This document shows positions 8,943 to 31,303 of a stretch of DNA of 64,000 nucleotides, piece by piece. This stretch comes from Panopea generosa. Taxonomy: Eukaryota; Mollusca; Bivalvia; Adapedonta; Hiatellidae. The notes below the pieces were generated by a model. The model worked only from the letters and a program-made list of their open reading frames with translations, had not been told where the DNA came from and made no database searches. Every line of letters begins with the position of its first letter. Positions within the stretch are counted from its first letter, which is position 1. Where the stretch lies: positions 16,110,482 to 16,174,481 of the forward strand of contig CM055897.1 of assembly GCA_029582155.1 (NCBI GenBank). The letters are read 5' to 3'. A program made the translations under genes and the position numbers.

Positions 8943-9985
8943 CTTTGTTCGTCCATTTATGTAGTACCTCCCACCCAAGAACTCATTAAACTTTACAAGT
9001 ATCTCGTCCAAGCGGTTTATAACATCTCTCAACCCGGGAATGTCATCGTCTGACCCTTCCATCCACATGATCTTGTCACTTCTGATGCCAGAGTTTACCA
9101 CTTGTTTGTCCTTTATATCACTTGTACGCCCACCTGATAATCTTCCAATATCAAATTTGCTACTCTTTTCACATGTTTCTATATCTTCCAGAGATTGTCT
9201 AATCAAAGTTTCACTGAATACACCATCAATAACACAAAAAAACATTTTTATCAAGATTTTCAACAGCAACCTCTGCTTTTTCTTTTTGTTTGATTGATGA
9301 TTTCCTATCTAGGAATGATGTCAACTTGTATGGTCGGACATCAAAAGGAATACCTTCATGTTTGGTTTTATTCAGCTGATCATCAGTTTTATTAATAAGT
9401 GTTTGCTCACTTCCATTTTCAGGACTGTTTCCTGATGCAACCAATGTAACTGACGATGGCCCTTGCAGACGAGAAAAACTATTGTCAGTTAAAGAAGATG
9501 TTTCTATTGGTGGAGCATGCTGACTAAGAATTGTTTTATTTTCATTTCATTTCGATTTACCTGGGCTACAGAAGACGCACGCAACTCTTGTACAGATATT
9601 TGAATTCTAACCATTGTCTTGATATTGATAATCTACTTCGTTCGAATATGGTTGCTGAAGGTTTGCATTGGTGTCCCGATCTAGCATCGATTGTCTATCG
9701 ATATGGACCGAAATATCCACCTTATCTTGAAGAGATTCACTTTTTTGCAGTCTTTTGCTCGTTATTATTTCTTATTTGCTGGCATATTGGTTTGTGTTTC
9801 GTCCAATCTTTTGTTTGATGTTCCCTGGAGCAGTAGAATGCACGCTTACAAAAACCACAACGTTTCAAGTCCTTTGTTTTACCACAAATGGAACAAGCCA
9901 GTAAGTTATCGGCACATGTCTCCATATTGTTTACATGAGCACCTGCATTGGTCTCTATTTGAAGAGCTTCGTCGGGAGGAAAGAA
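8943..9985 (-). pseudogene. EGLN/PHD-type HIF prolyl hydroxylase, exon-1 fragment
   Basis: On the minus strand a MYND zinc finger comes first: C-x2-C, then CGFCKRAFYC, then H-x3-C ending at KPIC (9,763-9,897). A Ser/Thr/Gln-rich linker follows, then the N-terminal part of a 2-oxoglutarate prolyl hydroxylase domain with FCVIDGVFS, GDKI-like SDKIMWMEG and INGRTK. EGLN proteins hydroxylate HIF-alpha for oxygen sensing, and EGLN1/2-type proteins pair MYND with this domain. Immediately after NGRTK is a perfect donor GTAAGT (8,937-8,942), where, as I recall, EGLN exon 1 ends in animals. The frame breaks at an A-run near 9,740, again in the linker near 9,500-9,620 (with a stop), and at a T-run near 9,245. 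The iron-binding HxD...H exons are not found downstream. Homology in the second duplication unit begins inside this exon. It could be an assembly-damaged real gene, but a fragment pseudogene is more likely. Confidence 0.8.
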
Positions 9986-10496
9986 CAATAACTCATGTCA
10001 CGAAATTGTTATAGGTGTAACCCAACCATTGATTTTTGTTCTTTATTCTATAGTAAATAATAAAAGTTTGAAGGCTTGTCATTCATAGAGAAACCCAATG
10101 AAAGAAGTGAAACCTACATTTTACTGTTTGTCAATCTCTGCACTACCAAAATATAATGAAAAAAGTAGGGGTCAGTGTGTAAACTGGTGACAAAGTGAAA
10201 GTAGACTTCCGAAATCATGTATCCCAATTTCCAAGTATCAATTGTTTTTTTAAATTCACATTTTAACATTACAATGCTTTTAAAATATTTAAAAGAAAAT
10301 CAATTATGAATGCCATTCAAATAAAAAAATAATCATTAAAATAATGAAAATGCATTTTTAAAGAAGAGGACGAAACAAGCCATAACCGCCATTAATATGC
10401 GACCATCACACAGAAGCACTTCCTTTTTCCAAAGGTGGTACTTGCGTCGTAGATGATCAAGACTAGACTTTCGATTGTTAACTAAAGCTGATGGAC

Positions 10497-10650
10497 AGGG
10501 TTAAACGCCATTTTCAACACATTTCAGGTTATATATGGCATATCCAGTTTTGCTGGTGGGGGAAGACTTCAGACTGAGTCAGACTGAGTAGAACTACCGT
10601 CCTCGCAAAGTAACTGGCAAAATTTCTCACATACTACGGAGGACCGTTAA
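10497..10650 (-). repeat. SINE-D, deleted copy
   Basis: The body (ending GGTTATATATGGCATATCC and GCAAAGTAACTGGC) is kept, but about 95 bp holding the tRNA-like head are missing compared with its counterpart at 27,883-28,107. The sequence jumps from CTCACATA straight to CTACGGAGGACC. Confidence 0.7.
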
Positions 10651-10756
10651 AGATTATGAACAGACATTTATGCTTATTTGGAGACGGTAACGTCTACAGC
10701 TAATTCTATTCTGTTTTATTGAATCATAAAGTATATACATGTTGATACATATATGC

Positions 10757-10881
10757 GGCGGGCCCGATTAGCTCAGTCGGTAACGCATCTGACTATCAAT
10801 CCTGGAGACTCCCTGTTGATTGATATACGACATTGTGTCTCATTATCATTCGTGTTTCGCCGCTGATTCAAGTGGGATAGT
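10757..10881 (+). repeat. SINE-A, truncated copy
   Basis: A tRNA-derived head with an A-box GATTAGCTCAGTCGGTAACGC is followed by the start of the SINE-A body. It stops after TTCAAGTGGGA. The counterpart in unit 2 (28,219-28,478) continues for roughly 230 bp more, so the tail was lost here after the duplication. Confidence 0.75.
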
Positions 10882-10901
10882 TATTTCACAAAACTATCAA
10901 A

Positions 10902-11166
10902 GGGTTTAGCCCCATTTTCAACACATTTTATGTTATTTTTGTAACTTTTATTTCAATTTAGTTGTACGCATTTTAGGTTATATATGCCATATCTAGATTT
11001 ATTGGTGGAGGAAAACCTCAGAGTGAATCGAAGTAAAACCACCGTCCTTCCATAAGTAACTGGCCAAGTTTTTGACAAAGCAGGACTCGAACCTAGGCTA
11101 CGACCAAAGTGGTGAGTGGTAAGTGATCTTGAGATTGCGCGTTAGACCGCCCAGCTACGGAGAACC
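10902..11166 (-). repeat. SINE-D copy
   Basis: A minus-strand tRNA-derived SINE. Its head (about 11,060-11,160) reads, on the minus strand, as a Ser/Leu-like tRNA with GTAGC at the 5' side and GGTTCGAGTCCTGC as the B box. The body ends with the family GGTTATATATGCCATATC block. A direct counterpart lies at 28,572-28,842. Confidence 0.7.
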
Positions 11167-11186
11167 CTCACAAAATCATTAACAAT

Positions 11187-11277
11187 GGTGGACTATCGAT
11201 ATCAAGAGTTGTCTCTACAATTGAGCCTGAATTACTTCCCCTGATAACAGGTGGTGCTCTCGTGGGCAGTTCCGGTT
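11187..11277 (+). repeat. ISL2EU left terminal inverted repeat
   Basis: Blocks shared with the inverted right end, in order, are GG, ACTATCGATATCAA, AGTT, TTACTTCCC, GTG and TTCCGGTT. The spacing is similar in both ends, though the sequence between blocks differs. Confidence 0.85.
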
Positions 11278-11655
11278 ATTTTTGTCGACATCGAATATAA
11301 TGCGTAATCTGATAGATCATCAATATATCTTGTTAAAAACAAAAATATCGAAAAGTTTTCAAAAAGAATTTGGTCAGATATTCGATGTTCGAGAAAAATA
11401 ATCGGAAACAGTGCGTTAAAAGAATTGCCAGTTATTATTATTAATTCTGTTTTTTAAGTGAATTATCATTTTAATCTCTCAGCACTACAGTAACATCTAA
11501 AATTTAAATTGCAAATTTCGTACCCCATCCATTTTAATTCTGAATGATTATTTTTTGTCTTGATCTACATTCAGTTACTGGCTCTGGCAGAAAAATATTT
11601 CAAATTCACATTTTCATTTTTTGTTTCTTCCCTTTAATTCCATGGCTGATCCTGA

Positions 11656-13150
11656 TCTCTGACTGAGAAACCAGTGTTTATTAGGGAAAGAGCTGCCTCT
11701 GGGGGGAAGCGATACTGTGTTGTGTGTAAGCACTACGAAAATGAAGTATTAGAGAATGAATTAAAAGTGACTTTACACCGTGTTCCAGGAGGCCAATCTA
11801 AAGATGAAGTTGCAAGAAAAAAGGCATGGATAAGGGTAATGAAACTACACAGGCCAAATCTACCACTAACAGATATCATGCGAGTATGCAATCTTCACTT
11901 TGAAAATCAGATGTGTATACGAGGCATATCAGTGCCAAAATACTTCAATTTGAACAAAAAAAATGACAAGCCACTGAAGATTCGTCGTCCTCTGGCGGTA
12001 AAGTACAACAATGTGCCAGAGCCCGAGATATATACAGCTGTACGTCTAAGCTTGAATTCAGATAATGAACTTAATTCTCCAGAACTGAATGTCATCGACC
12101 AGCCTGAAATGTATATAGACTGTATTGAAAGTAGTGCAACCATTGAAATCAGCAGCTCACCCCTAAACCCGCAATGTATCATTGAAGATCGCACAAGTTC
12201 AAACATTGAGTTAGGTGACCATGTATATCATCTTCCCAAGCAATTTGCTAAAACCTCAGATGCTGGATCACAAACATCAAATGTAACAATGATACCGGAG
12301 GACATTGAAAATAATGATGGAAAAACACGTTTCAATACTGGCTTTCCAACTTACTTGACTTTTCTTCTATTTTTTCAAACTTTATTGAAACATGGTGCTG
12401 ACAAATTGACGTACTGGGAGGGCCAAAAGAGATCCCTAGGTGATAGGAATTACAACAACGAAAATGTTGGCAAACCAGGGAGAAGACGCAAACTTCGTCC
12501 TATTGATGAACTTTATATGGTTTGTCTACGTCTGCGACTGGGCCTACTCCAAGAACACCTTAAAGATGTCTTTGATGTTTCTGTCATGACTGTGTCGCGA
12601 GTCATGAACACGTGGATCAATTTCATGTTTGGTCATATGTAGGCCCTGATTCCTTGGCCAACAAAGGATCAGATCATGGCAAATCTGCCAAAATGTTTTA
12701 CTGACATGCCAGAAGTGAGGATTGTTGTAGATGCAACTGATTTTTTTTTGTAAAAGGCCAAGCTCTCTAGTAGCACAAAATCAAACCTTGAGTGAATATA
12801 AACACCATAATACATTTAAGGTTTTAGTTGGAGTAGCACAAAATGGATTCCAAAACTTGAGCCCGGTGACATCATTTTGGCTGATAAGGGATTTACTGTT
12901 GCTGATTTGTTGCCATCAAATATAGGTTTGAATATGTCACCATTTGTATGGAAGTCTTGACAGATGACAAAAAAATCAGTTTTTCAAAACACAGACAATA
13001 GCTTCTTCGAGAATAGTTGTAGAGATGAAAATGGAACAGATGAAAAATGTTCGTGTCCTGCAAAAAGTTCTTCCATTGTCTGAAGCTCATTTAGCTGAAC
13101 AGATAATTGTTATATGCACTGCTATGACAAATTTGTATGAACCATTGTTT
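11656..13150 (+). pseudogene. THAP-domain DDE transposase of the ISL2EU element (decayed)
   Basis: The first open stretch encodes an N-terminal THAP zinc finger (C15-x2-C18, W52, C72-x2-H75, then VPKYF). A variable linker and a C-terminal helix-turn-helix of the HTH_Tnp_4 type (about residues 275-318) follow. A TAG at 12,640 interrupts the frame. Coding similarity resumes at once with a DDE_Tnp_4 start containing VVDATDF (first Asp), then a T-run frameshift near 12,745 leads into KHHNTFKVLVGVA. About 25-30 residues then appear deleted before LADKGF (second Asp, near 12,880), and a final VEMKMEQ segment near 13,020 probably holds the catalytic Glu. No in-frame ATG precedes the THAP domain; the frame opens after a TGA at 11,653. 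It would bind the element ends and cut and join DNA; here it is inactive. Confidence 0.88.
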
Positions 13151-13270
13151 ACCAAATGTGTAGAAAGATATGCAATACAGAACAACAAATACCAAATGTG
13201 TAGAAAGATATGCAGTACAGAACAACAATTACCAAATGTGTGGAAATATATGCAATACAGAATAACAGTA
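13151..13270. repeat. 40-bp tandem repeat, three copies
   Basis: Three consecutive 40-bp units start ACCAAATGTGTAGAAAGATA. They lie right after the last recognisable transposase codons, and the unit sequence derives from that point, so this is a local expansion in the dead gene. Confidence 0.9.
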
Positions 13271-13759
13271 TTTCACTGTTCTCTAGGGCATAATTATATC
13301 CATTAAAATTAAATGGCCAATTTATATTCTTGAAAGTTTTGTGTCGATTAATAGACCCTTTAATGAAAAAAAATCCTCATCACATGTATGCTCGATAAGC
13401 TTAATAATCATTTAACAGAAGTGTTGGATTGCATGCTATGCAGTTTGACGGTGTATTGCAACATGGGCCAACACCCCAAGGACACTGTTGGAATACTGTT
13501 TGCTACTGTTGTGACATGCTTGTTTTTAGGTGAATTAGTCGACGAAAATTATGTGACATCGACACCCACGGGCAATATAATATTATAGCAGCACTGTTCT
13601 TAGAAAAACAGCTTTAGGTTTAAAATGACAATATTAAAACCATGATTTATGTTTCTGTAACTTAAATGTTATGGAATTTAAAATCCTATTATATATGTTT
13701 TTAACAATATTGTTGCTTTTTCTTCTTTTTAATATGTTTTTAACGCAATTTTTTGAAAC
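13271..13759. other. Transposon interior without recognisable gene
   Basis: AT-rich sequence follows the transposase relic. It includes a short open frame (13,388-13,588) with no features I recognise. It is probably 3' untranslated or spacer DNA of the element. Confidence 0.5.
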
Positions 13760-13945
13760 ACATAACAGGTTATATATTGCATATCCAGTTTGTGGAGGAA
13801 GTTAAAACCTCAGATCGAATCTTAGTAGAACCATCGTTCTTCCACAAGTATCTGGCAATTTATTCACATATAGTTTTTGGACTGAGCTAGACTCAATCCA
13901 GCGAACTTGGTGGTGAGAGCCGTTTACTTGATTGCCCTGAGGCTA
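13760..13945 (-). repeat. SINE-D copy inside the transposon
   Basis: It shows the family block GGTTATATATTGCATATCC, then the GTAGAACCATCGTTCTTCC and tRNA-like remains (CTAGACTCAATCC), on the minus strand. It is diverged and nested in the ISL2EU element. Confidence 0.7.
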
Positions 13946-14779
13946 TTTCTAACACTGTTACACTCATGCTATTTCTAATGATTATCAATGATATGAGGCT
14001 TTGATATCGCATGGATCGACTTTTATTGTTCAACTTCTTACAATATTAACAAAGAAAACAACAACTGAGTCAGCGAATTTACTTTTTGTATTACCAACAT
14101 TTTGCAAACATCAAACTGAATTTACACAACATAAACCATTTGGATTTATAATATCCAATCAAAATATAAAAATATAGCATTTCAACATTCAAGGGTAAAC
14201 AACTACAACAAAGACCCTGGAAAATTACGTTTTTTTACCCATCTAGCTTCTGTTTCTCCAACATACTTAAATCCGACTTAAAAACTTGAATCTAAACAAG
14301 TAGCCAAGATATCCATATTTACGACTTGTTTGTGATAAACTGCATATCGTTTCATTGATATTAATTATACAATATATAAATAACCAGACAAAATTGAGTT
14401 TAATTATGAAGTATTTACATATGTTGGTAAAACAGAAGCCATATATCTTTAATGTGGCTTTATGGTAACACTACAGCATTCAATATTAAAAGAAACACTC
14501 CACAATTTAAAACTGAGCTTACTTATGTGTTAACCTACCAAATCAGTTTTTAGTGCATATATAAATAAACTTGTAGATACATTAATTTCCATGTTTTACT
14601 ACCGGCATATGATGTGGCTATTTAACACAAAATCCTAAAAATTACAAATTGTTAAACTTTTCAGGATTTTTTTATTATACCAGTAAGAACTTCTGAACAA
14701 AATTTAGGATGATCCGCATAATAGTATGGTAATGTATTTTAACTTTATTTTTGCACTTTGTAGACACTGTTTTAGGTTG

Positions 14780-15003
14780 GTTGGTTGAATATTTAGCGTC
14801 ATTTTTATGCCATCTAGGGCTAACAGACGATCAGTTAACCTTACCACTGTTTCCTGGGATTACCCAGTACTCGAGCACATCCCATCTCCGCAAGTAACTG
14901 ATAACTTTCCCACTTGAATCAGTGGTGAGAGACGAATGATAAGTGGACACAATGTCGTATATCAGTCATCACGGAGACTGTTGCTGGGCAGGGGATTCGG
15001 ACA
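14780..15003 (-). repeat. SINE-A copy inside the transposon
   Basis: The minus-strand copy runs from the tail (TTAGCGTCATTTTTATGCC, then GGGCTAACAGACGA) toward the tRNA-like head. The head is truncated after GCAGGGGATTCGG. It is closely related to 37,727-37,975. Confidence 0.8.
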
Positions 15004-15615
15004 CTGTTTTAAGATATAATGTTATTATAAAGTTGAAATCTATCAAAATTGCTTTGTGTGCTTTTAAAATCCTATAAAAAAAATTAAACTTATATTGGAT
15101 AAATAAGAATTATGTGCTATTTTTCACTGTATCAAGGGCATGTAACTCAAACTGCATCTACAACTGTCAAAATCTCTGCTGGTTTTCAAATTTGTCTAAG
15201 AGATGATGTTATGTATCATAGCCAAGTTCAAATTCCAATTGTTATTTTTCACAATTCAACAGAACACAGTTCCAACGTACACTATATGACACCATACTTG
15301 TATCTAATTTTAACACGCTATACTTTTATCTCCGTGTACCACACCGTAATTTTATGTACATGTGCAACACTGTACTTGTAACAGCAATAGTTTAAGACTT
15401 TATGAGCATTTAGCTTTTTAAATTTCATATTTATCTTAAATACAGTCAAATGCAGGTAACAACTGTTTTGAGCATGTTAAAGAACAATATGAGCCTGTAT
15501 GCAGCCTGGATTGTTCTTGAGGTTTCTGTTATTAACACCTCTGAGGCTTATTTATTTAATATATATAGGTCTAGGTACTTATTGACCTCTAATATTTATT
15601 GTTTCATACTGTCAT
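15004..15615. other. Spacer / probable 3' region of the YqaJ gene
   Basis: AT-rich sequence lies between the SINE and the YqaJ stop codon. The plus-strand open frames here show no domain and no splice context. Confidence 0.5.
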
Positions 15616-17330
15616 CTACTCAAGTAATGGTACCCCTCGTGTTACTAGATCTGTAAAATGTTCTGCAACCAAGAATGAGTTGTAGCAAAATTTCAACTTG
15701 AACATCATATTCTGCTGCCAGAATTCTTCACTGAACTCAACTCGCTGGACACTGATGCCCTTTTTGGTCCAAATAACAAAGTCGCACCAGTCTAAACCTA
15801 GCACTTTCATCTGCCCCATAATTTGATACATGTAGTTGTGATTTTCAACTAGTTCCAATTCATCACCTTGACTATGTTTGCTACAGAATTTTTTCAAATT
15901 GGCACACTCAATTGGATATAAATTTCTGCCAACAAATGGGCACTTAATTTCAAGAGCTCCCACACCGCACTTGTCACATTTCACAATTCCATCGACACTA
16001 GCTCCAAGGAACGGGAATTGTTTTGAAAGAACAAGACCTGTGGTTTCCACTGTCACATTTCCGCATGTTCGCAAATGCCTTGCCGCATACTCACGTATAG
16101 CTTGACTCTCTTTCTTTCTGCCATACTTCATTCCTTTAGTGTCTACATGCGCACTGTAACCTCTTAATTTAAGCAATAAATTATCCGGCTCTGTTTCAGT
16201 CTTTTTCTTGCAAATATTTCCAAAGTTTGAGGCAGTCAATACGTTCGATCGCATCTCCTTCCATTTTGGATTTGAACTTAGTCCCCTTGTTGATTCCTCA
16301 GCCTCAATCTTATTTTCACTCAATGTAATACTTGAAGTGAAGTTTTGAAATTCGGATTGGCAAACACTGGAGTTGATATTTACACTGTCACTGTACATAA
16401 ATGTGGGCTTGTACTTGGATGCTATGTGTAACAAGTCTATTATGTTCGGATTTAAAGTTCTGTATAAAACACAGGTTGGATTTACTTTTCCAAGACCTTT
16501 CATTATGTCCTTCAGAAATACATCTGAGTCCTTACAAGGTCCGGCTTGATAGGCATCGGGATATGGTTTTATAGGCAGTTCCTTGTCCTGATCTCTAGAT
16601 GGATTTAGGAACTGTATATCTTTCAGACACTCTGGTTCTAATCGCTTTGTGGACTGTGGTTTAAGTCACTCACAGCCTATGGATGTGCAAGCACTTTTGA
16701 TGTTCGCCAGAGTCAAAAGAAGTCCTCTGACATGACTGCACAAGCCATTTACTCCAGGTTTACAGTTGCAGCTACCACCATCAACACTACCTGTTTTCTT
16801 GATGATAATTACGTGAAGACTATAATAGCGTGCAAGCTTTCCATCAGATACATGTACAACATCCTTCATGCTTAGATTGCACTTTGCGCGAACATAACAA
16901 TACTGGCTGTCTTCAAGACTGTTGAGTTCAATATTATGAATATACCGTTCATAACAGAATTTCTTAGCCTTTTTAAGCTGTCTATGGCATGCTTGAGATT
17001 TTCCTGTCAGTGGATTTTTGTTGTAGATGAAGTAGTTTTCTACATCTTCATTTCTAGTTGGTGGGCATGTGCTTGTGGATATTGACTCCCATCCATCTTT
17101 CACCGATTTAATAGGTGGAACACTACTATCTGTGTTGTCACAAGAATCATCACTGTCAACATCTGAATCACTGTCTGAGTTGTCAAAACGAAGAGATCTT
17201 ATAATTCTGTGTATGAGAACTTGTTTGTTTCCCGACCGCCTTTTCTTATGATGGACAAGCCATGAACAAGATCTTTCTTCTTCCAAGAATTTAGAGTGTC
17301 TTCGTCTATGTTGTCAACCAAACTGCTCAT
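15616..17330 (-). pseudogene. SWIM zinc-finger / YqaJ-type nuclease of the ISL2EU element
   Basis: Read on the minus strand, ATG at 17,330 opens an N-terminal SAP-like segment (SWKKKDLVHGL). A frameshift near 17,255-17,275 separates it from the long frame continuing RSGNKQVLIHRI. Downstream are an acidic linker, a SWIM finger (CNC then CSHVRG, about 16,700-16,760) and a C-terminal YqaJ viral-recombinase nuclease domain. The latter has GASVDG, LEIKCPF and QIMGQM, matching the D...ExK...Q arrangement of the lambda-exonuclease-like PD-(D/E)xK fold. A single in-frame TGA (16,666-16,668) splits it; the frame on both sides is the same and the neighbouring codons (CE-stop-LKPQ) suggest a lost Trp. 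A pyrimidine tract ending GCAG just before the ATG could be a 3' splice site for a non-coding first exon. It runs convergently to the transposase and presumably processes DNA ends for the element. One stop and one shift are far less damage than the transposase shows. Confidence 0.9.
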
Positions 17331-17339
17331 TCTGCAAAA

Positions 17340-17884
17340 AAAAAGTTTTATTTTGAATACAAACAAGTTTATGTAAACGATTATTCATTAAAAAGTTTCA
17401 GGCATGCTATACTTTCTTAAATACAGTGATACACTTAGACAATTACCAAGTGTTCATAGCACATTAAGATAGTCAGCTTCATCATATGGAGTTTTGGGAG
17501 CAAAGTATTTTCAGACACAGTTTCAGGCACGCTATACTTTCTTAAATACAGTGATATACTCAGACATTTACGGTTTATATTATAAATCTCAGACGACACA
17601 GTGAAGTATTCATTTGAAAAAACTAATAGAACAAAAAAAATAAATATGTGGTCAAATACAGAGAAACCCCTCAACAAGGACATAATTATGAAATCAGGCA
17701 ATATCCTACTCACAATGCGGGTTAAATTACTTTATGAGGTCTTACTGGACATGCCCCAGGAATCAATACCTTAACCCTTAAGTCATGAATCTGACATCTT
17801 AACTTGCAATCTTTACAGAGCAAGCAGGATTGTAACATGTGACCAGTGTAGATGCAGATCAAAAACAGTCTGCTTTACCAATGC
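17340..17884. other. Element interior with a short direct repeat
   Basis: There is no gene. A segment GCTATACTTTCTTAAATACAG plus neighbouring bases occurs twice, at about 17,406 and 17,530, separated by roughly 124 bp. This is probably the promoter side or 5' region of the YqaJ gene. Confidence 0.5.
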
Positions 17885-18095
17885 AGTATGTGGAGCACGT
17901 GGTCCAGTGTTAGAGCATCGAAACCAGGATCGGAGGGTTGTGGGTTCGATCCTCTGCCATGGCTATGTGTAGTGTCCTTGAGCAAGACACTTTATCCGCA
18001 TATGCTTAGTAATGATTCTGCACAGGAAAACTTTTAGCGTGATTTGTTGTAATAACTTGTTGCACAATCGAAGTAAAATAAATAAGTTTAAAATA
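17885..18095 (+). repeat. SINE-B copy inside the transposon
   Basis: A full-length tRNA-derived SINE: GCACGTGGTCCAGTG in the head, GGGTTCGATCCTCTGCCA as the B box, then GAGCAAGACACTTTATCC and the tail AAATAAATAAGTTT-like. It inserted after the transposon did. Confidence 0.85.
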
Positions 18096-18099
18096 ATTA

Positions 18100-19240
18100 A
18101 ACAGTATTATCAGGGTTTGCTACTCAGTGCCAGTCAATAATTTTCTAAAACACCCCTATAAATCAAGAATGGAAGTTAAGGAAAAAATGGTCCAATACAT
18201 AATACATAAATGGGTTTGGAGACAATATTAACATAATATAAAAAGTTATCTTATTATTTAGCTTAATCTTTTGTATTTGATTTTTTTATTGCTTTCTTTC
18301 TCCTATTAAGGTTGTGGCTGCACAATAACAAATGACTGAATTAGTTCTACTTCATGCCCTTTCTTTTGTATATTAAGATGAAGCCATGTTGAGTGGTATT
18401 TTTTTTACAAACCACTATGTTGATTATATTGTGTATTCTATCTGCCCTGCAAGGACCCCATGCAATATCATTTTAAATACCCACTCCAATAGTTCCCTGG
18501 ACAAATATGATTTTCTCACCTTTTTGAGAGTGTCATAATTATGGAATATATGTCTATAGGCTATATATATAGTTCAAATTGTAAGTTTCTGGCATCATGC
18601 TGAGATCTCCTAATTAATCTCCCCCGACACCAAATGCACACCATGTGGTAATGTGAAATACCCTGCCACTTGTGTTTTCATACTGCACTCCCAAACGTTT
18701 TATGACCAGAAGATTTATGAAAGGATGTATGTAACAATACATCATTATTATGGTTAATTTTAAATTTTATAATTTTCAGTTATTTAAGGGCTCTATTAAA
18801 CATTCATAAAGTACAAAATCTCAATTTTGGGGTTTCCTAAACTAGTATGATTGTGTATTTATATATAAGAAATTTAAAAAAAAATCTCTTCCATCAGTTT
18901 GTACCCAGTATTTAATATATATAATCTTATTTTATTACACAATATGTGTGAACTTTCACAACAAGTTCACAAGAAAAGTATAAAATAAGGTCAATATTTA
19001 TTTTATTTTCATTTTATATCAATTATTCATGTCTAAGAAGAACTATGCTAACAGCCTAACATAAAATAATTTATACAGTTATTAAAAAAGTGAAATTGGT
19101 GGTATAGTATATTTTTGTGAGTTACCAACTACATTTAGGTAAGTATGGTTATACTGATAAGTTAACTTAATAATGTTTGAAATTTGAAATTTAGTTTAAC
19201 TTTTATTTTGTTATTTAAATCATTTACATGTTGTTGTTTT
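18100..19240. other. AT-rich interior of the transposon
   Basis: I see no gene, RNA or clear repeat here. It is probably old element spacer or unrecognised insertions. Confidence 0.5.
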
Positions 19241-19244
19241 TTAA

Positions 19245-19443
19245 CCCTTTACTTCATATAGACGCCTTTAGACACCTCTAATATAGTAAAGGCATTTGAA
19301 AACAGTGTAGAAATCAGAACAGGTCCCACACTGTTTTCTGCTCTATCAGAATAAATAGGTAAAATGTATCTTTTCATGGAAATGGACTTAAGTATGGCTT
19401 TGAGTTTGGAGAAGTCCACTTGAAATGCATATGGAGTAAAGGG
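19245..19443. mobile_element. piggyBac-like MITE, copy 1
   Basis: TTAA lies on both sides of a 199-bp non-coding element with mirrored ends: CCCTTTACTTCATAT at the left and ATATGGAGTAAAGGG at the right. TTAA targets with CCCTTT-like ends are typical of piggyBac-superfamily MITEs. This copy sits inside the ISL2EU element. Confidence 0.85.
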
Positions 19444-19449
19444 TTAAAA

Positions 19450-20320
19450 ATAGGCCATTTACAGTGAAACTGAATATATAGTATTTGCTTTAAAAAAATA
19501 CAAAAGTACTTAGCCCTTAGCCAAGGCAGTTGTTATTTATCCCCCACTCTACCCTCCCCTCTTTGATGTAATTTATAAATTCAATGTAATTTAAAGCTGT
19601 AAATAAAACATGCATTCAAGTTCATCAGTAGAACAGAATTTTTTATATAAAAAAATGGCGATAACGGCCCCTAGCCTAGGCAGTTCCTATATTATCCCCT
19701 ACCTCCCCAATGTATAATAAATAATTGTAAAACAAGAAATCACAGTATGAACTGAAACTTGACATAGCTACACAGGAGGCATTTTCATAATATTAATTAT
19801 TAAGATATTTTATAAAATCACATTTAAACTATGAGAAATGTCTTTGGAAGCAAACATTTAAGTAGATCTGATACATAAATGTATATGTTTTAATTAACAT
19901 TGCACAACGGTTCAGTATGGTACCATATGCATATTGCTTACTGAAATATTTAATTATTTTTAGTTTTTTGTACATTTTAATAAATTATGTTTTCTTCTTT
20001 TCATACATTAAACTTTTATTCTAACGAATTAAGTGCATAAATAAATGATTCTTTGATATTGACTCGATTTATGAACTATATGAAACACGTTTTAATATGA
20101 TGTCCGAATGTTGAGCACATCTGAATTCGTTGGATCTTAAACATATAATTGGATATATTCAATCAAACAATCAATAATCCGTTTATTCATAACAAACAGC
20201 AGTTATATACTTACTTGTTGGTCCTTTATGCGACTGTTGTTGGTAAATTTGTATATTCAATTACTTCCTTTATTTTGTTTATCAACAGATTTTTGTACTG
20301 CACTGCTGTTGTGAAAAACG
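19450..20320. other. AT-rich right interior of the transposon
   Basis: No gene is recognisable; frames are short and AT-biased. Confidence 0.45.
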
Positions 20321-20413
20321 AAACCGGAAATAGCAAAACACTACCCAAAGCGAAGGGAAGTAACTCTAATATAGATGACTAGGGGACGGAACTTTTGATA
20401 TCGGTAGTAAGCC
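20321..20413 (-). repeat. ISL2EU right terminal inverted repeat
   Basis: Read inward, this end runs GG, ACTACCGATATCAAAAGTT, TTACTTCCC, GTG and TTCCGGTT. It mirrors the left end block for block. The AT at 20,414-20,415 is the second copy of the target duplication. Confidence 0.85.
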
Positions 20414-20472
20414 ATTGTTTGAAACACCTGTTCTTGTATAATGATTACGCAGCAACTAGAATAGTACTTTAA

Positions 20473-20647
20473 CTCTTTACTTCATATAGACACCTTTGGA
20501 CACCTCTAATATAGAAGGCTTTTGAATTATTAGGTGAATTATGTTTATATTAACTGACTCGTTACAAGCAATCAGAACTCTTCCTGCACTGTTTTCAAAG
20601 GCCTTCTAAGATTGGTGAGGGAAAACGTGTACCCATGGAGTAAAGGG
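20473..20647. mobile_element. piggyBac-like MITE, copy 2 (unit 1)
   Basis: TTAA at 20,469 and 20,648 bound a 175-bp relative of the 19,245 MITE. It lies at the same place as the copy at 28,916 in unit 2, so it was present before the tandem duplication. Confidence 0.85.
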
Positions 20648-20760
20648 TTAACACCTGTTGTACTACAAATACATTTGCTATTTTCGTATGCTGGTGTGAA
20701 AATGCAAATGAACAGACTACTATTTTGTAACAAACAAGAGACCCAAATCACGCCTGCTAA

Positions 20761-23202
20761 ACTTCCGGTTCAGAGTTAGATGACGTAAAAACAGCACGTG
20801 GAAGGTAAGAAATATGTGAATTTTCATTATCGAAATTGTTTTTAAAAATTCTTAATCCATAGTTCGACCCGTTTTTGAAGCTGAAATTTATAGACGAAGT
20901 ATCATAAACAACAGAAGTACGTTTGTTTTGCAAATCGTTTTCTTCAGTTCAGACGCGAGACGATTTTGATATTTAGAGCTCTACGGCGACGGCGACGGAG
21001 GCGACATAGCGCCTGTGTTCAGAGCAGAGGTTTGGTGGTAATTGTGGAAAACGGTACGTGGACCATCTATTTGCCATATTGTTTTTTCAAGTAGATTTCT
21101 AGACAGTAAACACATGTATCGCATCACTGAAAATTACTGACTACTCTACATATTCAGAGGTGGGGCATATGTAGAAGTTGGAGAAAATTGGTCGTACAAC
21201 AAAGTGGTATCATATTTATGTGTAAGTTTGTTTACAATATGCATGCACATAACAATAAGGTAAACAGGCGGACCGACAACGCATATCTTACATATGGCGG
21301 TCTGTATACCTCATATTGGGCTTTTGGTCTAGATTACCTTAAATGCGCATGGTTGAGACTTTTAAAGACATTACATAGTTCATATCAAAATAATTCGAGA
21401 TTAAATGAACACATTGTGACGAAGTATTGTAGATAAATACCTTTGTTCACTCTTAAAACGCCAGGCATGGTGGAATAGTAAAATCGGTATGTAAAAGTTC
21501 ATTAAGTGTTCATTAATAAAAATTTAACAATTAAGAAACACAAAGGGAACGACCGCTGGGTGTTTAATCTCATTTGACATCCGATTGAATCACTTCAAAG
21601 TTGTGTCGCTCTTGATTGTTAAAACAGCCTATAAAATTTATTATTAAGTCTGTTCTTGATTATTAAGAAGTTCGTAATCACTGCCCATTTGTGAATGACA
21701 CTGCACAAAATCCGCCCTTGATTGAATTCTGAACGAGTACAAACTATAAAGCCCACCGAGCTATGCTTAGAAATGGCCTTAGCAACGGATGGCTTTCAAA
21801 CATCAATCATCTCAGCTTTCATCGTAGCTCCGCCCAGAGTTACATAAACTGTCAGTCAAAACGTTTAACACTAAGTCAGTTAGTGTTCATTAAGTAAAAG
21901 TAAAAATAGAGAAAAGGCCTGAGCTAAACATAGAACTTTAACCTTGCAATGCAATAATTAACTAAGTTCGTTATGAATGTCAAGGTCAGTGATGTAAACA
22001 TTTATAAAATGATTGTGATCAGTTAACACAATCAATACATATAACTTAAGAACAAAATAGATTAAAACGAATTAAAACCCGAGCTAAACAAAAAACGTTA
22101 ACCTAAGGTTGCTATGTACATTGATTGTATAACATGATAGGAATGTGTTTTTGAAGTTTAGTCACTATAACTTCGGTAGTTTGTTCAGAAAGAAAGAAAA
22201 TGCTGAACTAAACATAAAACTTTAACAAGTGGACGATAACAACGACAACGACGACGGCAGAGTCATGACAATAGCTATTCATGTTTTACAAAAAGACGAG
22301 CTAAAAAGGGGCTAATATCCATCGAGCGACCTCAAACTGTTCCCTGGTCGAGTGCAGACACTAGTGTGTATATTGTAGTTGTATGGATGTTTATGAGAGT
22401 CGGGGATTTATGTTAACACTGCTATATATATTCGGTGTGTGGGGGACGACAAGGGACCGAACCCACTGGGCATTCCCTCTGTTCAAGGTAGACTAACACA
22501 CATGATGTTGATATGGGCCCAATAAAATAAATAGGCCAGCTGAGTTCCGCATCGGACAGTGATTCATTATTGGGTAGCCAACGTATGACATTTTAAGTGA
22601 TGTAGGCCTATTTTATTTAAGCTAAAAACTCCATCAACATTATTTTCAAACCGACAAAACGTTTTTTGTTAGTTTATTGATTTGTTTTTTACGAGTATGT
22701 TGTGATATTCAAACTTTTAAGCAGGATGGAAACAATGCTCAATACATTTTGACCGTGCAGTTGTGCACAACTCGACATAAGTATTTTGTTCTTATTTTCA
22801 TAGAACGTGTTCTGTACCATTTCCCCGCTCTCTGTACCAATCACATTTTGGCATATTTCGTTTTACCATGTTCTTTATCTTCGGAGTATTTAGACTTATG
22901 AAACGATTTTATGTTATATGTAAACATACAAGTAAATATAATGATTGAACTCGGGATTAAATCAACGATAGTGGCCGCTTTGAAAGGCGAGGTAGAGCTC
23001 TATATGTCAAAATCGCCTACCGTCTGTACAGAAGAAAACGACTTTATAAGAAACCGTACTAGACTTATTCTACAAGATTAAGCTTCAAAAACGGGTCCAA
23101 CTATGGATTTTGATTTTTTAAAAACAATTTTTATAATGGAAAATCACACATTTCTTACCTCACATGTGTTGTTTTTACGTCATCTAACTCTGGACCGGAA
23201 GT
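20761..23202. mobile_element. Element with ~240-bp terminal inverted repeats (unclassified)
   Basis: The left arm (20,761-21,005) and the inverted right arm (about 22,968-23,202) share ACTTCCGGT, AGAGTTAGATGACGTAAAAAC, CCATAGTT, ACCCGTTTTTGAAGCT, CGTTTTCTTC and AGAGCTCTAC in order, with moderate divergence. The interior has no transposase-like frame. A degenerate GACGACGGCAGAGTCATGAC..GAGCTAAAAAG segment near 22,250 resembles the end of a common bivalve repeat. No target duplication could be identified. A corresponding arm pair is absent in unit 2. Confidence 0.7.
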
Positions 23203-23826
23203 TGCACATATGGTACAGCCGTCTGATAGGTCTCACAAAAGCATTGAATTAAAAAAAAAACTGGTCAATGTATGCTTTTTTCCCCTTTATAATTGCCTTT
23301 CTTGAACCAGTGAAGAATTTGAGCCCAGACACATGCTGCAGAATTTGATATTTCACTCTGTTTTGGATATAAATATTACAACGGAGCCCTATGGGAAATG
23401 TAATAGTGTTGTGAGACGTGAATAGTTAACTTAATGTCAACATTAAATTTTTCTCGATAATTATGAAATTCAGCGGGACTGCTTTTGGAAATAAATTGAA
23501 CCATGTGTTCTAAATTACTACACAATTTGAAGAGTAACTAGGATCCAGGTGTATAAGCGCAGTAAACAATACGATAAAACTTAAAAATCATATTTTTAGC
23601 TCCGCCAAGCCGCAAGTGTTTTTCATTAGGAAACGAAATGCAGTTAATCTGTATGGTTCATTTAGGCCGATTGCACTGGGAATGTAAATACTATCTATTA
23701 ATAAAATGGTTTCAAATACTTGTTCTAAATAATAACACAATATCTGGAATAGCAATAGTCTTTACAATCGGACAAGTGTAACACCCAAATTCACGTCTTG
23801 TTTGAAGGTAGTAGCGTATCATTGTC

Positions 23827-24545
23827 TCAGTAGAATTTATTACCGGCCATAGCCAACATCCATGTTGGTAGTTTTATAAAGTTAGAAATGAACCAGGCTG
23901 TACGAACGTAACCTTGCTTTTTAAGGAAAACGTTGATTTGTCGCATTTCTATTGGTTCGTGTCCTTCTTTGTCTGTAAGACTATATTCACGGGCTAAGTC
24001 GTACGCCATAACGATCTTTCCAGATTTTTTCATTATGTTCGGATCCGTCGCCAGACTTGCAAATCATTGTCCAGCAAATTCGGTTGTTTCACCTTTTTCA
24101 AAAACTTCCATTGACATTTTTGGGTCCATCCCTGTAGATTTCGATTCAAATCCCTCTTCATTTGATTTTTTGGCACTTTCACGTTATGTAATTAACACCG
24201 TTTCTGTCCCAACCGCCCCGGGCCATAAGCTTACATATGCAACATTATTTTTTCGCAATTCGAACCCACAATCAGCAGCCATACGATCACATGCTTCTTT
24301 TCCAATACCATAGGCAACGTTGAATAAATAACGCAGACCTCCTCCAGAGGAAATATTGACAATCAGACCCTGTTTCCGCGGGACCATCAGTCTAGCTGCA
24401 AAAACTGAACATATGTAGTGATTTCGTAACCCGACATTATTCACGTCGTCCCACATCGTTGTAGGCTGCTCCCAAAATTTCATCCCCATCTGCGAGAAAA
24501 TAGCATTCCCTGCAGAATAAGCGTTGTTGACTAGGATGTCTAACT
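23827..24545 (-). pseudogene. DHRS1-like short-chain dehydrogenase, truncated copy (unit 1)
   Basis: This is the sister of the intact gene at 31,304-32,302. Residues from about LDILVNNAY to the C-terminal AMAGNKFY remain, including the active-site YGIGK. About 560 bp are deleted just upstream: the sequence jumps from the CTAACTGA codons to GGGTATAATAAATG, which in unit 2 lies upstream of the gene. The N-terminal NAD(P)-binding TGxxxGIG half and the start codon are therefore lost. Two in-frame stops are also present: a TAA near 24,185 where unit 2 has TTA, and a TGA near 24,067 where unit 2 has a Cys codon. Confidence 0.92.
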
Positions 24546-24879
24546 GATCGGGTATAATAAATGTAGGTTTAAAGAGGATGACTTATAAGTCCGATATTTT
24601 ATAATAAGATTGTTTTCAGTCAGAATGTTCTCGTCATTTAAATTGCGTCCCATGATCAATTCAACAAAAGAACTTTCCTAAATCCGATAATTCCCGAACG
24701 AGTTGGCAGATCAAATATCAAGGACAAGGCTATCAGCACGACCGTCGTGTCGATTATTTTCTTTATTGGCACGACGGAATCATTTTAATTTACATAGCAC
24801 ATTAGTGAGGAGAAATAACAAATTGGCGGAATTAATATTAGACAAGACATGAAAGGAGTCAATAAAGAAAATAGACAAA

Positions 24880-25100
24880 ACATGACAAAACATGCAACCA
24901 AAGAATCAAAAGACCAAATAGTGTAATACAACATGCAGCAGACAAGACATCACAAGACATCTCCTCTGACAATACCAGGAAGGCTGCCAATAATGTAACC
25001 AAAAAATAAAAATTCCAAATAGTATATTACAACATGCAGCAGACAAACATCACAAGGCAACCCCTCTGACAATACAATTGAGGCTTCCATATGAAGACAT
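24880..25100. repeat. ~104-bp minisatellite, about two copies (unit 1)
   Basis: Units contain CAAAAGACCAAATAGTG, AACATGCAGCAGACAAGACATC and CCCCTCTGACAATAC. Unit 2 carries about three copies at the same place, so repeat number changed after the duplication. Confidence 0.75.
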
Positions 25101-25109
25101 CATAATAAC

Positions 25110-25970
25110 ACGAATTGTCAAAGGCATAACAGGGATTTTAGTCATACATAGCTGGCATATGCTTTAAGAAGAGCAATTACTACTTGGTAAATTGTACAGC
25201 TGCAGTAAGGTTTTTTATAGGAAACAAATTATGGAAATACAACATGTCCTCTAAAACATATGCAGCTATTATTCAGAACCTAGTTTTTTTAATACAGCAA
25301 AATAACTAAATCACAAGCATCATGTGAACAGTAAACGTTTTAAAATATATAGTTTTATTTTCATGGAAACAATTAGGTTGTGTGGGCAGCAATTTTTAGT
25401 ACCTGTATCACCAGAATATGTAAATAAAAATCTGATTGGTGCATTATATAACAATGTAGAGAAAGCCTCAAATTCCGAAAGTTATGCAGATGCCTGTGAG
25501 AAATCTATTAAATGAGTGACTTTTTTATGTCCCCCTCAAACATGTCCAAATTACTTTATTCACTAGACCTTTGTATTAATTCGCGTATTTATGCAACTTC
25601 AGAGTTTTATTAAACTCGTTCAAGAAAAGTTTTTATAAGTGTACTTGGCGAGTATAATAAATGTTGTTGTTAATAAATGTATAGTCGAATCGATAAAAGT
25701 GTTTTTTTAGTTAGAATTATTTTTTAGGCCAGACTTACACATCTCGTTATGGTTATTCGGCCTATGAAGGGAGCTACATATATGTCCTTTTGTAAGTTAC
25801 TAATTTGAATTTTTATTTATACGTGGGAAATGTGATCAAAAGAATCTGACACTTGCTTGTAATTCATACAGAGTTTCATTAAACTTGTCCAGGAAAAACT
25901 GCCTTTTCCTGAACTCGTTTAATAAAATGCTGCATGCAATGACGAGTGTCAGATCTTATTAATCACAATC
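25110..25970. other. Intergenic DNA shared by both units
   Basis: No gene is seen. It matches 33,250-34,125 closely. A 63-aa open frame here is not preserved in unit 2, which argues against it being a gene. Confidence 0.6.
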
Positions 25971-25974
25971 TAAT

Positions 25975-26184
25975 TTGAGAGCGCGTGGTCCAGTGGTAGA
26001 TCACCGAACCCATGATCGTGAGGGTCGTGTGTTTGATTCTACTCCACGGTCATGTGTAGCGTCCTTGGGCAAGATACTTTTCCGCATATGCTTAGTACTG
26101 GTTCTAACCAGGAATCCTTCGAGCGTGATTTGCCTTAGTTGTAAGAACTTGTTTCACAATCAAAGTAAAATAAATAAGTTTAAA
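25975..26184 (+). repeat. SINE-B copy (unit 1)
   Basis: GAGCGCGTGGTCCAGTGGTAG starts the head, and the family body and AAATAAATAAGTTT tail follow. The orthologous insertion is at 34,132 in unit 2, so this SINE predates the tandem duplication. Confidence 0.9.
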
Positions 26185-26189
26185 CTTGA

Positions 26190-27305
26190 ATATAAGTACA
26201 CATCCTTTATAAACAATAGATGTAGTCGCTAGTTGTTCCCAACACATTTGGATATGAAGCATTAAGTTTGTTATCATATTTTCAATAGATGATAAACATG
26301 TCACAAATAATTGTCCTTCGTGGTCATCCAAAGAACTGTTAATGCATGAAAAACCACTGCCTTAAAAGGTTCTTGGGCAGTGGGTTCCTCTGCATACATT
26401 CTTTTATGCACAATATCAGCTGCATAGGCATTATTTCTTACATAAGAACTGAGAACTTTTATAAGCATTTGTTTCGAGGAAACAATACTTAGATTTCCTT
26501 TACCTAAAACTGCTGTAATTTCGGTTATTAAACCTAACATGTCCTGTTTTTTATTTCACTTTCACACTGGAACGGTATACTCCTTGTACTGCAATTATTT
26601 TTTTTTCTTTTCTTTTATCATTTCTCCATTTAACATATTTTATCTTGTCTTTGTGATATTTTCTCGCCTGACCAGTATTTGCTGATAACTTCATTGTTAA
26701 AAGATTCCAATGTATTCGCTCCATAAACGTTCACCCTGAGGTGAGTATCCAAATTTTTTTTCATTTTTATATGAAACTACAGGTTCATTAATTTATCGTT
26801 ATCTGGAAATAACTCCAGATTTATCAAATTTGTACTTGTTTGTATACTTATAATTGTGTTGATATTATCATATAGTCGTTGAAAATTCGTATATTTATAA
26901 CATCTAATACTAACATACTAATTTTCATAGACAATATAGATTATAGCATGCCAATATTTCACTGGTATGTACGATCTGCTCCATTGAAAATATCTACATT
27001 TAAACTAAAAAACATTGACTGATTGTTTGGAATTCCAAATTACTGCTTCTGAATATGACAAAGATTTCTTGATAATTCACAGTTTAGCTATTGGGATTCT
27101 GAATGGAGGACATTCATTTGTGGAACAATACACATCATATCGCTTTCCCTTTCGTCCTTACAGAGTTTTACGATTTAAGTGCGTGATTTAAGTTTATATC
27201 ATAGTTTTAAAATGCTATTAACGAAAGTTTTGGTATTTGCTAGCTGTATATACTGATTATGTGTAACAACACCGTTGTCGGGTTAACGTATACTTTGTTT
27301 GTGAT
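26190..27305. other. Intergenic DNA shared by both units
   Basis: Matches 34,335-35,450 at high identity. I recognise no exon; minus-strand frames near 26,100-26,540 are short and without a domain. Confidence 0.55.
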
Positions 27306-27882
27306 TATTTGAAGAGCTTCGTCGGGAGGAAAGAACAATAACTCTTGTCACGAAATTGTTATAGGTGTAACCCCACCATTGATTTATGTTCTTTATTCTA
27401 TAGTAAATAATAAAAGTTTGAAGGCTTGTCATTTATAGGGAAACCTAAAATGAAAGAAGTGAAACCTACATTTTACTGTTTGTCAATCTCTGCACTACCA
27501 AAATATGATGAGAAAAGTAGGGGGCATTTGTCATATAAAAGATTTTTTATGCTCAGTGTGTACACTGTTGACAAATTGAAAGTAGACTTCCGAAATCATG
27601 TATCCCAATTTCCAAGTATCAATTGTTTTTCTAAATTCACATTTTAACATTACAATGCTGCTTTCAAAATATCTAAAATAAATCAATTATGAATGCCATT
27701 CAAATAAAAAAATGATCATTAAAATAATGAAAATGCATTTTTAAAGAAGAGGATGAAACAAGCCTTAACCGCCATTAATATGCGACCATCACATAGAAGC
27801 ACTTCCTTTTTCCAAAGGTGGTACTTGCGTCGTAGATGATCAAGACTGGACTTTCGATTGTAAACTGAAGCTGATGAACGGG

Positions 27883-28107
27883 GTTAAACGCTATTTTCAA
27901 CTCATTTCAGGTTATATATGACATATCCAGTTTTGCTGGTGGAGGAAGACTTAAGTAGACTGAGTAGAACTACCGTCCTCGCAAAGTAACTGGCAAACGT
28001 TCTCACATAAAGTTTTTGGCACGAGCAGGACTCGAACCTAACGACTTTAGCGGTGAGAGGTAAGTGATCTTGAGACGGTGCCTTAGACCACTCGGCTACG
28101 GAGGACC
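27883..28107 (-). repeat. SINE-D, complete copy
   Basis: On the minus strand the head reads as a Ser/Leu-like tRNA (GTAGCCGAGTGGTCTAAGGC at the 5' side, GGTTCGAGTCCTGC as B box). The body follows, ending in GGATATG and AACCTGAAATG. Confidence 0.8.
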
Positions 28108-28218
28108 GTTAAAGATTATGGACAGACATTTATGCTTATTTGAAGACGGTTACGTATACAGTTAATTCTATTCTGTTTTATTGAATCATAAAGTATATAC
28201 ATGTTGATACATATATGC

Positions 28219-28478
28219 GGCGGGCCCGATTAGCTCAGTCGGTAACGCATCTGACTATTAATTCAGGAGTCTCCCTGTTGATTGATATACGACATTGTGT
28301 CTCATTATCATTCGTGTCTCGCCGCTGATTCAAGTGGGAAAGTTATCAGTTACTTTCGGAGATGGTATGTGCTCTAGTACTGGTTAAGCTTTCATGATCC
28401 CAGAAAAGAGCGGTTAGGTTAACTGGTCGTCTGTTAGCCCTTAGTAGCAAATAGGTGACGCTAAAAATTGAATCATTT
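28219..28478 (+). repeat. SINE-A, complete copy
   Basis: Head with GATTAGCTCAGTCGGTAACGC, middle with TTCAAGTGGGAAAGTTATCAG, tail with GTCGTCTGTTAGCCC and GTGACGCTAAAAATTGAAT. It is the reference copy for the family in this window. Confidence 0.85.
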
Positions 28479-28571
28479 AATCATGTTTATAATAACGTAT
28501 TGATTTTTATTTACTAGTTGATATAGTATATATATACTAGCATATAATTGACTATTTCACAAAACTATCAA

Positions 28572-28842
28572 AGGGTTTAGTCCGATATTCAACACATTTT
28601 AGGTTATTATTTGTAACTTTTATTTCAATTTAGTTGTACGCATTTTAGGTTATATATGGCATATCTAGTTTTATTGGTGGAGGAAAACCTTAGAGTGAAT
28701 CGGAGTAAAACCACAGTTCTTCTGTAAGCAACTGGCCAAGTTTTTAACAAAGCAGGACTCGAACCTAGGCTACGACCTAAGCGGTGAGTGGTAAGTGATC
28801 TTGAGACGGCGCTTTAGACCGCCCAGCTACGGAGGACCCTTA
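28572..28842 (-). repeat. SINE-D copy (unit 2)
   Basis: Counterpart of 10,902-11,166. The body is interrupted by about 45 bp of TTTGTAACTTTTATTTCAAT-type sequence, and the interruption is present in both units. Confidence 0.7.
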
Positions 28843-28847
28843 AAAAA

Positions 28848-28866
28848 ACATTAACAATTGTTTAAA
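28848..28866. other. Empty target site of the ISL2EU insertion
   Basis: The sequence AACAATTGTTT (AT at 28,857-28,858) is continuous here. In unit 1 the same sequence is split after AACAAT by the 9,227-bp element and resumes ATTGTTT. Flanking sequence matches on both sides. Confidence 0.92.
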
Positions 28867-28915
28867 ACACCTGTTCTAATATAATGATTACGCAGCAACA
28901 AGAATAGTACTTTAA

Positions 28916-29126
28916 CCCTTTGCTTCATATAGACACCTTAGGACTTCTCTAATATAGACGCCTTTGGACACCTCTAATATAAAAGACTTTTGAATTATTG
29001 GGTGCATTATGTTTATATTAACTGACAGAGTGGAAAACAGTTACGAGCAATCTGAACTCTTCCTGCACTTTTTTCAAAGGCCTTCTGAGATTGGTGCGGG
29101 AAAACGCGTACTTTTGGAGTAAAGTG
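28916..29126. mobile_element. piggyBac-like MITE, copy 3 (unit 2)
   Basis: TTAA at 28,912 and 29,127 bound the element. It is orthologous to 20,473-20,647 but has an extra internal repeat of the TCTAATATAGACGCC-type segment. Confidence 0.85.
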
Positions 29127-29210
29127 TTAACACCTGTTGTACTACAAATACATTTGCTATTTTCGTATGCTGGTGTGAAAATGCAAATGAACGGACTACT
29201 ACTTTGTAAC

Positions 29211-30061
29211 TAACAAGAGACCCATGGACCTTAACGGCCACCTGATAATCCTTGATGACATAAAGCTATATGAATATATACTCCAACTTTTATCCTTTGG
29301 GAAGCAGCAAAAATCCATCAATTGATTTTAATGTAGGCCCTTCCCCCAGGGCCAAACAGTGAGACAGAGGGACGACATGAAATTCACATTTTTTGTAAAT
29401 AACAAATAGATGTCAATAATCATGCTCATCAATTGTTTCCCAGTGCTTCTAATAAGATGAAGATTTTTAAAATTTACTTTGAAATTAACTGTTTTGGTCC
29501 CGCCCATAAGCTGCATGGGTGCGGGGATCATGAAATTCACATATATATTAACCGTCAATTCAACAACAACAAATAACACCAAAATATTCACATAAGTCTA
29601 TTCAGTCATAAGAAATAACACTTTTTGTCATTTCATAATGATTGAGCTTACGATTTTTGAGAATTCGAAAAGGTTAATTGCTTACGGACGTACTAATTTT
29701 GTTAAGGCCCCTACCCCAGGGTCAAATCGTGAGACCCAGGGACATGTAATTCACATTTCTATAAGGGATCTTTAATGCGTCCATAGTCATGCTAACCATT
29801 TGTTTCCCAGTGCTTCCTATAGTAAGAATATGGTGTTTAAAGTTTACCTTGAATGTGCCTGCTTTGGCCCCGCCTCAAGGTCCCAGAGGACGGGGACTAT
29901 GCAATTCACCCTAAGGTACCAAAGCTGCATACAACATTTCATTACGATTGAGCTTACGGTTTTTGAGAATTGTTTATAGAGGCACAACGCATACCGCACG
30001 ACGACCGACAAAAGGCGATCGCAAAAGGTCACATGAGACTAAGTCTCAGGTGACGTAAAAA
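29211..30061 (+). repeat. Bivalve-type dispersed repeat with ~330-bp internal duplications
   Basis: It opens AACAAGAGACCCATGGACCT and closes AGTCTCAGGTGACGTAAAAA, preceded by CGACGACCGAC. Inside, the block AGGCCC..CCCCAGGG..CA.A..GTGAGAC.. followed by TTTCCCAGTGCTTC and GAGCTTACG.TTTTTGAGAA is repeated at least twice. The ends resemble a repeat I associate with bivalve genomes. Unit 1 shares only the first dozen bases. Confidence 0.65.
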
Positions 30062-30064
30062 ACA

Positions 30065-30712: not shown

Positions 30713-31303
30713 AAATTGATAGGTCTCACAAAAGCATTGAACTTAAAAAAAAAACCTGGTCAATGTATGCTTTTTTCTCCCTTTATAATTGCATATCTTG
30801 AACCAGTGAAGAATCTGAACCCAGACACATGCTGCAGAATTTGATTTTTCACTCCGTTTTTGGACATAAATGTTACAACGGAGCCCTATGGGAAATGTAA
30901 GAGTGGTGTGAGACGTGAATAGTTAACTTAATGTCAACATTAATTTTTTCTCTATAATTATGAAATTTAGCGGAATTGCTTTTGCAAATGATTTGAACCA
31001 TGTGTTCTAAATTACTACACAATTTGTAGAGTAACTAGGATCCAGGTGTATAAGCGCAGTAAAAAAAACAATAAAACTCCGCCAAGCTGTAAGTGTTTTC
31101 CATTGGGAAATGAAATGCAGTCAATCTATATGGTTTATTTAGGCTGATTGCAGTGGGAATGTAAATACTATCTATTTATAAAAATGTTTCAAATACTTGT
31201 TCTAAATAATGACACAATATCTGGAATAGCAATAGTCTTTACAATCGGACAAGTGTAACACCCAAATATACGTCATGTTTGAAGGAAGTAGCATACCATT
31301 GTC

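Follow-up and report, generated by a model that had tools for sequence, protein, structure and literature searches.

An ISL2EU-type transposon of the bivalve Panopea generosa and its empty site in a tandem host duplication

ISL2EU elements form one group of the PHIS superfamily of cut-and-paste transposons. In the parts of PMC4482050 that deal with the group, 25 families from 14 animal species are described; insertion produces an AT duplication at the target A|AT|T, as confirmed by paralogous empty sites, and the inverted repeats measure 6-259 bp and usually start with GG. The same parts list two genes, one for a transposase with THAP, helix-turn-helix (HTH), and DDE domains and one for YqaJ, give a mean of 4,840 bp for autonomous elements, and describe the role of additional open reading frames (ORFs) as unknown. 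The portion of PMC9179366 on the group states that its authors knew of no published proof of activity; PMC12730594 notes that Spy is placed in the ISL2EU category of Repbase; and the transposon-reduction section of a scallop study (PMC10225492) groups THAP, YqaJ, and HTH_Tnp_4 genes, a grouping that fits ISL2EU. Here we describe an ISL2EU-type element of 9,227 bp, complete in extent and decayed in its coding parts, at positions 11187..20413 (plus strand) of a 64-kb stretch of the P. generosa genome (hereafter the window; it contains no N). We are close to certain that it is a cut-and-paste transposon of the ISL2EU group, inserted at A|AT|T into one unit of a tandem host duplication; a clock places the insertion, by a narrow margin, after the duplication.

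The evidence begins with two copies of the same host segment. Self-comparison within the window reveals two units in head-to-tail order, with blocks that are 83-96% identical: unit 1 (9956..27310, plus strand) carries the element, and unit 2 (27306..35455, plus strand) carries the empty site. When the flanks of the element (10600-11186 and 20414-20760) were joined and aligned to 28060-29240, the outcome was a single clean insert of 9,227 bp; further indels also separate unit 2 from unit 1. The filled site reads AACAAT|GGTGG...AAGCC|ATTGTTT, and its counterpart in unit 2 is an uninterrupted AACAATTGTTT, in which AT occurs once (28857..28858). Neither the G that opens the insert nor the C that closes it agrees with the empty site, which pins both ends to single positions and makes AT the exact duplication, with its left copy at 11185..11186 and its right copy at 20414..20415. 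A note made earlier from the letters of the window had claimed an insert of this length splitting unit 1, an intact site in unit 2, base-exact ends, and a 2-bp AT duplication, and the alignment bears out all of these. It had also presented the before/after pair as the novel part; that claim falls, since PMC4482050, in describing its 25 families with AT duplications and inverted repeats that mostly begin with GG, had already made use of paralogous empty sites. Of 32 papers in the searched literature that name ISL2EU, PMC4482050 is the one that also mentions an empty site.

The termini are long, imperfect inverted repeats. In the left (11187..11286, plus strand) and right (20314..20413, minus strand) terminal regions, 24 bp of the form GG...ACTAYCGATATCAARAGTT are followed by TTACTTCCC and then TTCCGGTT, in the same order at both ends. 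The left end reads GGTGGACTATCGATATCAAGAGTT and the right end, inverted, GGCTTACTACCGATATCAAAAGTT; both open with GG (GGTGGACTA and GGCTTACTA), and their length lies within the published range of the group. A comparison of the two 100-bp ends scored 9, and the top score among 5,000 random pairs drawn outside the element was 8 (0/5,000 as high); the inner 74 bp by themselves are weaker, with 31/5,000 random pairs as good. The inverted ends of about 90 bp proposed in the earlier note hold over the full comparison and less firmly over the inner portion. TTACTTCCC and its complement occur once each in the 64 kb, the former at element positions 46-54, 45 bp in from the left end, and the latter (GGGAAGTAA) 50 bp in from the right; a natural guess is that TTACTTCCC is a candidate transposase-binding site.

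Two of the refuting conditions set in the earlier note, different end points in other genomic copies and a target duplication other than AT, were put to the family, and the reading passed both. Searches of the host genome (1.474 Gb, 39 contigs; the window lies at C4:16110482-16174481) with the left 104 bp and the right 104 bp, whose counts are lower bounds, returned at least 18 left-end and at least 17 right-end matches, the window copy being counted in both; sequence was retrieved for all 17 left-end places outside the window. AAT, which makes up 3.2% of window triplets, stands immediately before the left end in 15/18 matches, or 14/17 when L015 and L023 are counted once. At the right end, 12/17 matches have ATT exactly where it is expected and 2/17 have it one base off, these two being the L015/L023 pair. 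L015 and L023 lie on different contigs and have common flanks and a common right end; they are one insertion, duplicated together with its surroundings. Most of the other copies end at the same base. A duplication other than AT was looked for, and in every copy with both ends legible to the single base the duplication was AT: A|AT and AT|T stand at the two sides of the window copy, L018, L019, L021, and L022, the last a 243-bp miniature with ends as in the window copy.

Between the ends lie two convergent genes, both broken. The N-terminal part of the transposase (11656..12639, plus strand) matches Pfam THAP (7.7e-07) and HTH_Tnp_4 (1.1e-08) and terminates at a stop. Remnants of the DDE_Tnp_4 core follow at 12731..13303 (plus strand), in two frames and three collinear pieces: profile positions 6-41 (1.1e-07), 66-94 (0.0088), and 109-158 (2.9e-05), of which the latter two are each under the Pfam cutoff when taken singly. 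About 24 profile positions are missing, which matches a 79-bp gap relative to other copies at 12847/12848 (element 1661/1662, within the DDE core). The window copy also lacks about 130 bp at element 196/197, and both stretches are present in all nine long relatives (L012-L015, L018-L021, and L023). On the minus strand, a 348-codon open stretch at 15619..16662 encodes the YqaJ exonuclease domain (PF09588, 1.4e-17); one in-frame stop separates it from the N-terminal part of the product (16669..17313), which has no Pfam match of its own. Judged from these frames, the window copy is dead, as neither the transposase nor the YqaJ protein would be made whole. The Pfam domains agree with the THAP transposase and convergent YqaJ nuclease of the earlier note; its description of a whole transposon is right for the extent of the element and wrong for its function. 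There are also tandem repeats. Three 40-bp copies lie within the DDE-region tail at 13150-13267, with apparently more in L014, and a repeat of about 125 bp begins at 17394-17571, upstream of the YqaJ gene; relatives differ in how many copies of it they have, and L020 has many.

Open frames, listed for 11/17 relatives, show the gene pair in better condition. Both genes are open in L020, where a transposase frame of 573 codons unites DDE_Tnp_4 (2.4e-39, over profile 1-158) with THAP and HTH_Tnp_4, and a second frame, 581 codons long, matches YqaJ at 3.6e-18; a SAP-like N-terminus of L020 is under the Pfam cutoff (18.6 vs 23.9 bits). L013 has a transposase frame of 571 codons with a different tail, and L014 and L019 each have an open YqaJ frame (575 and 580 codons, respectively) beside a split transposase. 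In the other relatives with listed frames, these are shorter or the sequence does not reach the YqaJ gene. A sequence search of the PDB gave no match for the L020 transposase and, for the YqaJ protein, a weak match to the exonuclease 3syy (E 0.016-0.021), in which GASvDG and LEIKCP are aligned; we take these to be catalytic residues. The sole NCBIfam match was to a lambda-exonuclease family, under threshold (39 vs 68 bits), and neither Rfam at gathering thresholds nor ARAGORN found anything in the 64-kb window.

The order of insertion and duplication was approached with a molecular clock. For the duplication, six blocks with 4,840 aligned sites, excluding gap-near positions and the tandem array 24551-25099, gave a Kimura two-parameter (K2P) divergence of 0.0630, or 0.0315 per lineage (0.0273-0.0360). 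For the insertion, the window copy was compared with the nine long relatives, leaving out the short or diverged L016, L017, L022, and L024-L028 and two tandem-repeat stretches. The terminal branch of the window copy is 0.0206 (noncoding sites 0.0200, coding 0.0172), a bootstrap with 7 of the 10 copies has a median of 0.0235 (0.0194-0.0268), and private differences amount to 139/7,728 sites, or 0.0180 (0.0149-0.0212). The clock thus supports, by a narrow margin, an insertion that came after the duplication, so that excision from unit 2 would be unneeded; the margin assumes equal rates and disappears when the comparison is confined to the two left-most blocks. Several observations weigh against our reading of the element or of this order. 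The clock intervals nearly touch, unit divergence ranges from 0.045 to 0.083 by block, and the two blocks farthest to the left of the insert stand at 0.045, half of which (about 0.023) is the same as the median that the bootstrap gave for the insertion. The copies are not uniform: L020 and L028 have TAT before the left end, the match to L028 beginning inside the end; L026 is without about 12 terminal bases; L032 has no ATT and ends differently on the right; and the right end is lost in L014 and L020. With 9,227 bp, the element is about twice as long as the published mean of 4,840 bp, although that figure is an average and does not strictly define the group. The ISL2EU placement itself was made by comparing ends, duplication, and gene pair with published traits.

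The pair of sites could have arisen in other ways. If the element were ancestral to the duplication and had been precisely excised from unit 2, an identical single AT would be left, such that the site sequence alone cannot discriminate; the two left-most blocks (K2P 0.045) would even date the duplication close to the insertion clock. The point values of that clock (0.018-0.0235) are nevertheless smaller than half of the divergence between the units as a whole (0.0273-0.0360), and in principle the age of an insertion should not exceed its terminal branch; we consider precise excision quite unlikely. Alternatively, the units could be two haplotypes set in tandem by the assembler, and the pair a presence/absence polymorphism rather than paralogs. 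Divergent haplotypes can be mis-assembled in this manner, and the units abut at 27306-27310. Yet a K2P of 0.063 together with large indels seems to us high for alleles, and a short-chain dehydrogenase gene that is open in unit 2 is, in unit 1, missing 101 residues at its start and interrupted by two stops. This, too, is unlikely, if a little less so than excision.

Two further alternatives concern the identity of the element rather than its history. The YqaJ product of the window copy also matches PF01771 (Viral_alk_exo, 1.3e-10), as does that of L020 (1.1e-11), and both matches could be taken to mark captured virus DNA, that is, an endogenous viral element. This gene, however, sits within the inverted ends beside a transposase, with an AT duplication and genomic relatives; YqaJ is a listed ISL2EU gene in the pertinent part of PMC4482050; and no further viral gene turned up in the four open stretches of the window copy that were scanned. 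We hold a viral origin to be the least probable of all the alternatives, at the very edge of consideration. Viral contigs searched with the YqaJ and THAP/HTH proteins yielded no relative, and an 18-base end pattern seen in three viral contigs was set aside, its frequency being about that expected by chance from a rough estimate of the size of the collection. Assignment to another PHIS group, whether PIF/Harbinger, Spy, Pangu, or Nuwa, would account for the DDE_Tnp_4 core, which is common to them. It is highly improbable given the AT duplication and YqaJ gene of this element, as the relevant parts of PMC4482050 and PMC9179366 give TWA, no duplication, ANT, CWG, and TNA for these groups and a second ORF that is Myb/SANT, motif-less, or absent.

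With the ISL2EU reading retained, the length of the element calls for comment. The ends are 8.4 kb apart in L019, 8.8 kb in L021, and 10.1 kb in L018. Several passengers lie inside the window copy. An interspersed repeat at 14777..15002, with relatives at 37715-37940 and 28268-28475, is nested between duplicated GACACTGTTTTA; it is present in L014, L018, L019, L020, and L021, and the sequence retrieved for L012, L013, and L023 does not bear on it. L015 has GACACTGTTTTA once and no repeat, and so represents the empty site of this passenger. A second interspersed repeat (17891..18096; relatives at 36265-36476, 25979-26186, and 34133-34335) lies within the matches to L014, L018, L020, and L021; a tRNA-like label for it, based on box motifs, was dropped when a tRNA search found none. 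A miniature element with TTAACCCTTTACTTCATAT inverted ends (19242..19447) lies within the matches to L014 and L018. Because the passengers are common to several copies, they most likely entered an ancestral element and then multiplied with it. They total about 0.64 kb and account for part only of the excess length. A second miniature with TTAACCCTTTACTTCATAT-like ends is located at 20469-20651, in the right flank of the element, and is common to unit 2 (28911-29130).

The surrounding host DNA has features of its own. In unit 1, 20760-23203 is a 2.4-kb stretch between inverted repeats of about 220 bp (79%) that is not in unit 2, and the unit 2 stretch 29224-30717 is without a match to it. The short-chain dehydrogenase gene, presumably DHRS1-like, occurs in three minus-strand copies: at 23830-24546 in unit 1, where the first 101 residues are gone and two stops are present; at 31307-32326 in unit 2, where it is open; and at 46899-47903, a copy that is 62% identical. 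Large tandem arrays (36 bp and 51 bp) occupy 42223-44793, where both strands contain long open frames.

A simple course of events would connect the ends, the AT duplication, the empty site, the domains, and the end points common to other copies. The host segment would first have been duplicated in tandem; the element would then have entered unit 1 at A|AT|T, where a cut staggered by 2 bp doubled AT, and unit 2 would have kept the original landing site. From what is known of the family, the THAP-HTH-DDE transposase may act on the inverted ends, and YqaJ exonuclease might, at a guess, process broken donor or joint DNA. The window copy may have lost its coding capacity after insertion or may have been moved by the proteins of other copies. 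For one ISL2EU family, an insertion is now resolved to the base and given a relative age, the ends are defined, and the relative with both frames open (L020) provides a defined family on which the role of YqaJ in transposition could be studied.

The YqaJ gene also bears on annotation. PMC7826175 files expansions of YqaJ and herpesvirus alkaline exonuclease domains in a clam as endogenous viral elements. Because the ISL2EU YqaJ product matches both PF09588 and PF01771, transposons may be an alternative source of such domains, and annotators are warned that the double match occurs. A broader proposal, to which we give somewhat less than an even chance, is that an unusually long ISL2EU lineage, some of whose relatives are about 1% apart (L019/L020, K2P 0.0096), multiplied with mobile repeats inside it and that most of the "viral" expansions reported in clam genomes represent the second gene of elements of this kind.

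Set beside known systems, the element has in common with PIF/Harbinger a DDE transposase of the same superfamily and two ORFs; PIF/Harbinger differs in that it duplicates 3 bp (TWA) and has a second ORF of the Myb/SANT type, where the window element has AT and YqaJ, and no Myb match at E <= 1 was found in the scanned open stretches of the window copy and L020 proteins. Spy has a related DDE transposase and an AT-rich target, but it makes no duplication, targets AAATTT, and mostly has one ORF, whereas the window element duplicates AT. The element is unlike described ISL2EU in its length of about 9 kb, its broken genes, and the passenger repeats present in several copies; what is added here is a family of genomic copies, the doubled length, passengers that multiplied along, and a clock for insertion versus duplication. 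It is like ISL2EU in its AT duplication at A|AT|T, its GG ends, its transposase with THAP, HTH, and DDE domains (in pieces in the window copy, in one open frame in L020), its second ORF with a YqaJ exonuclease domain, and its paralogous empty site.

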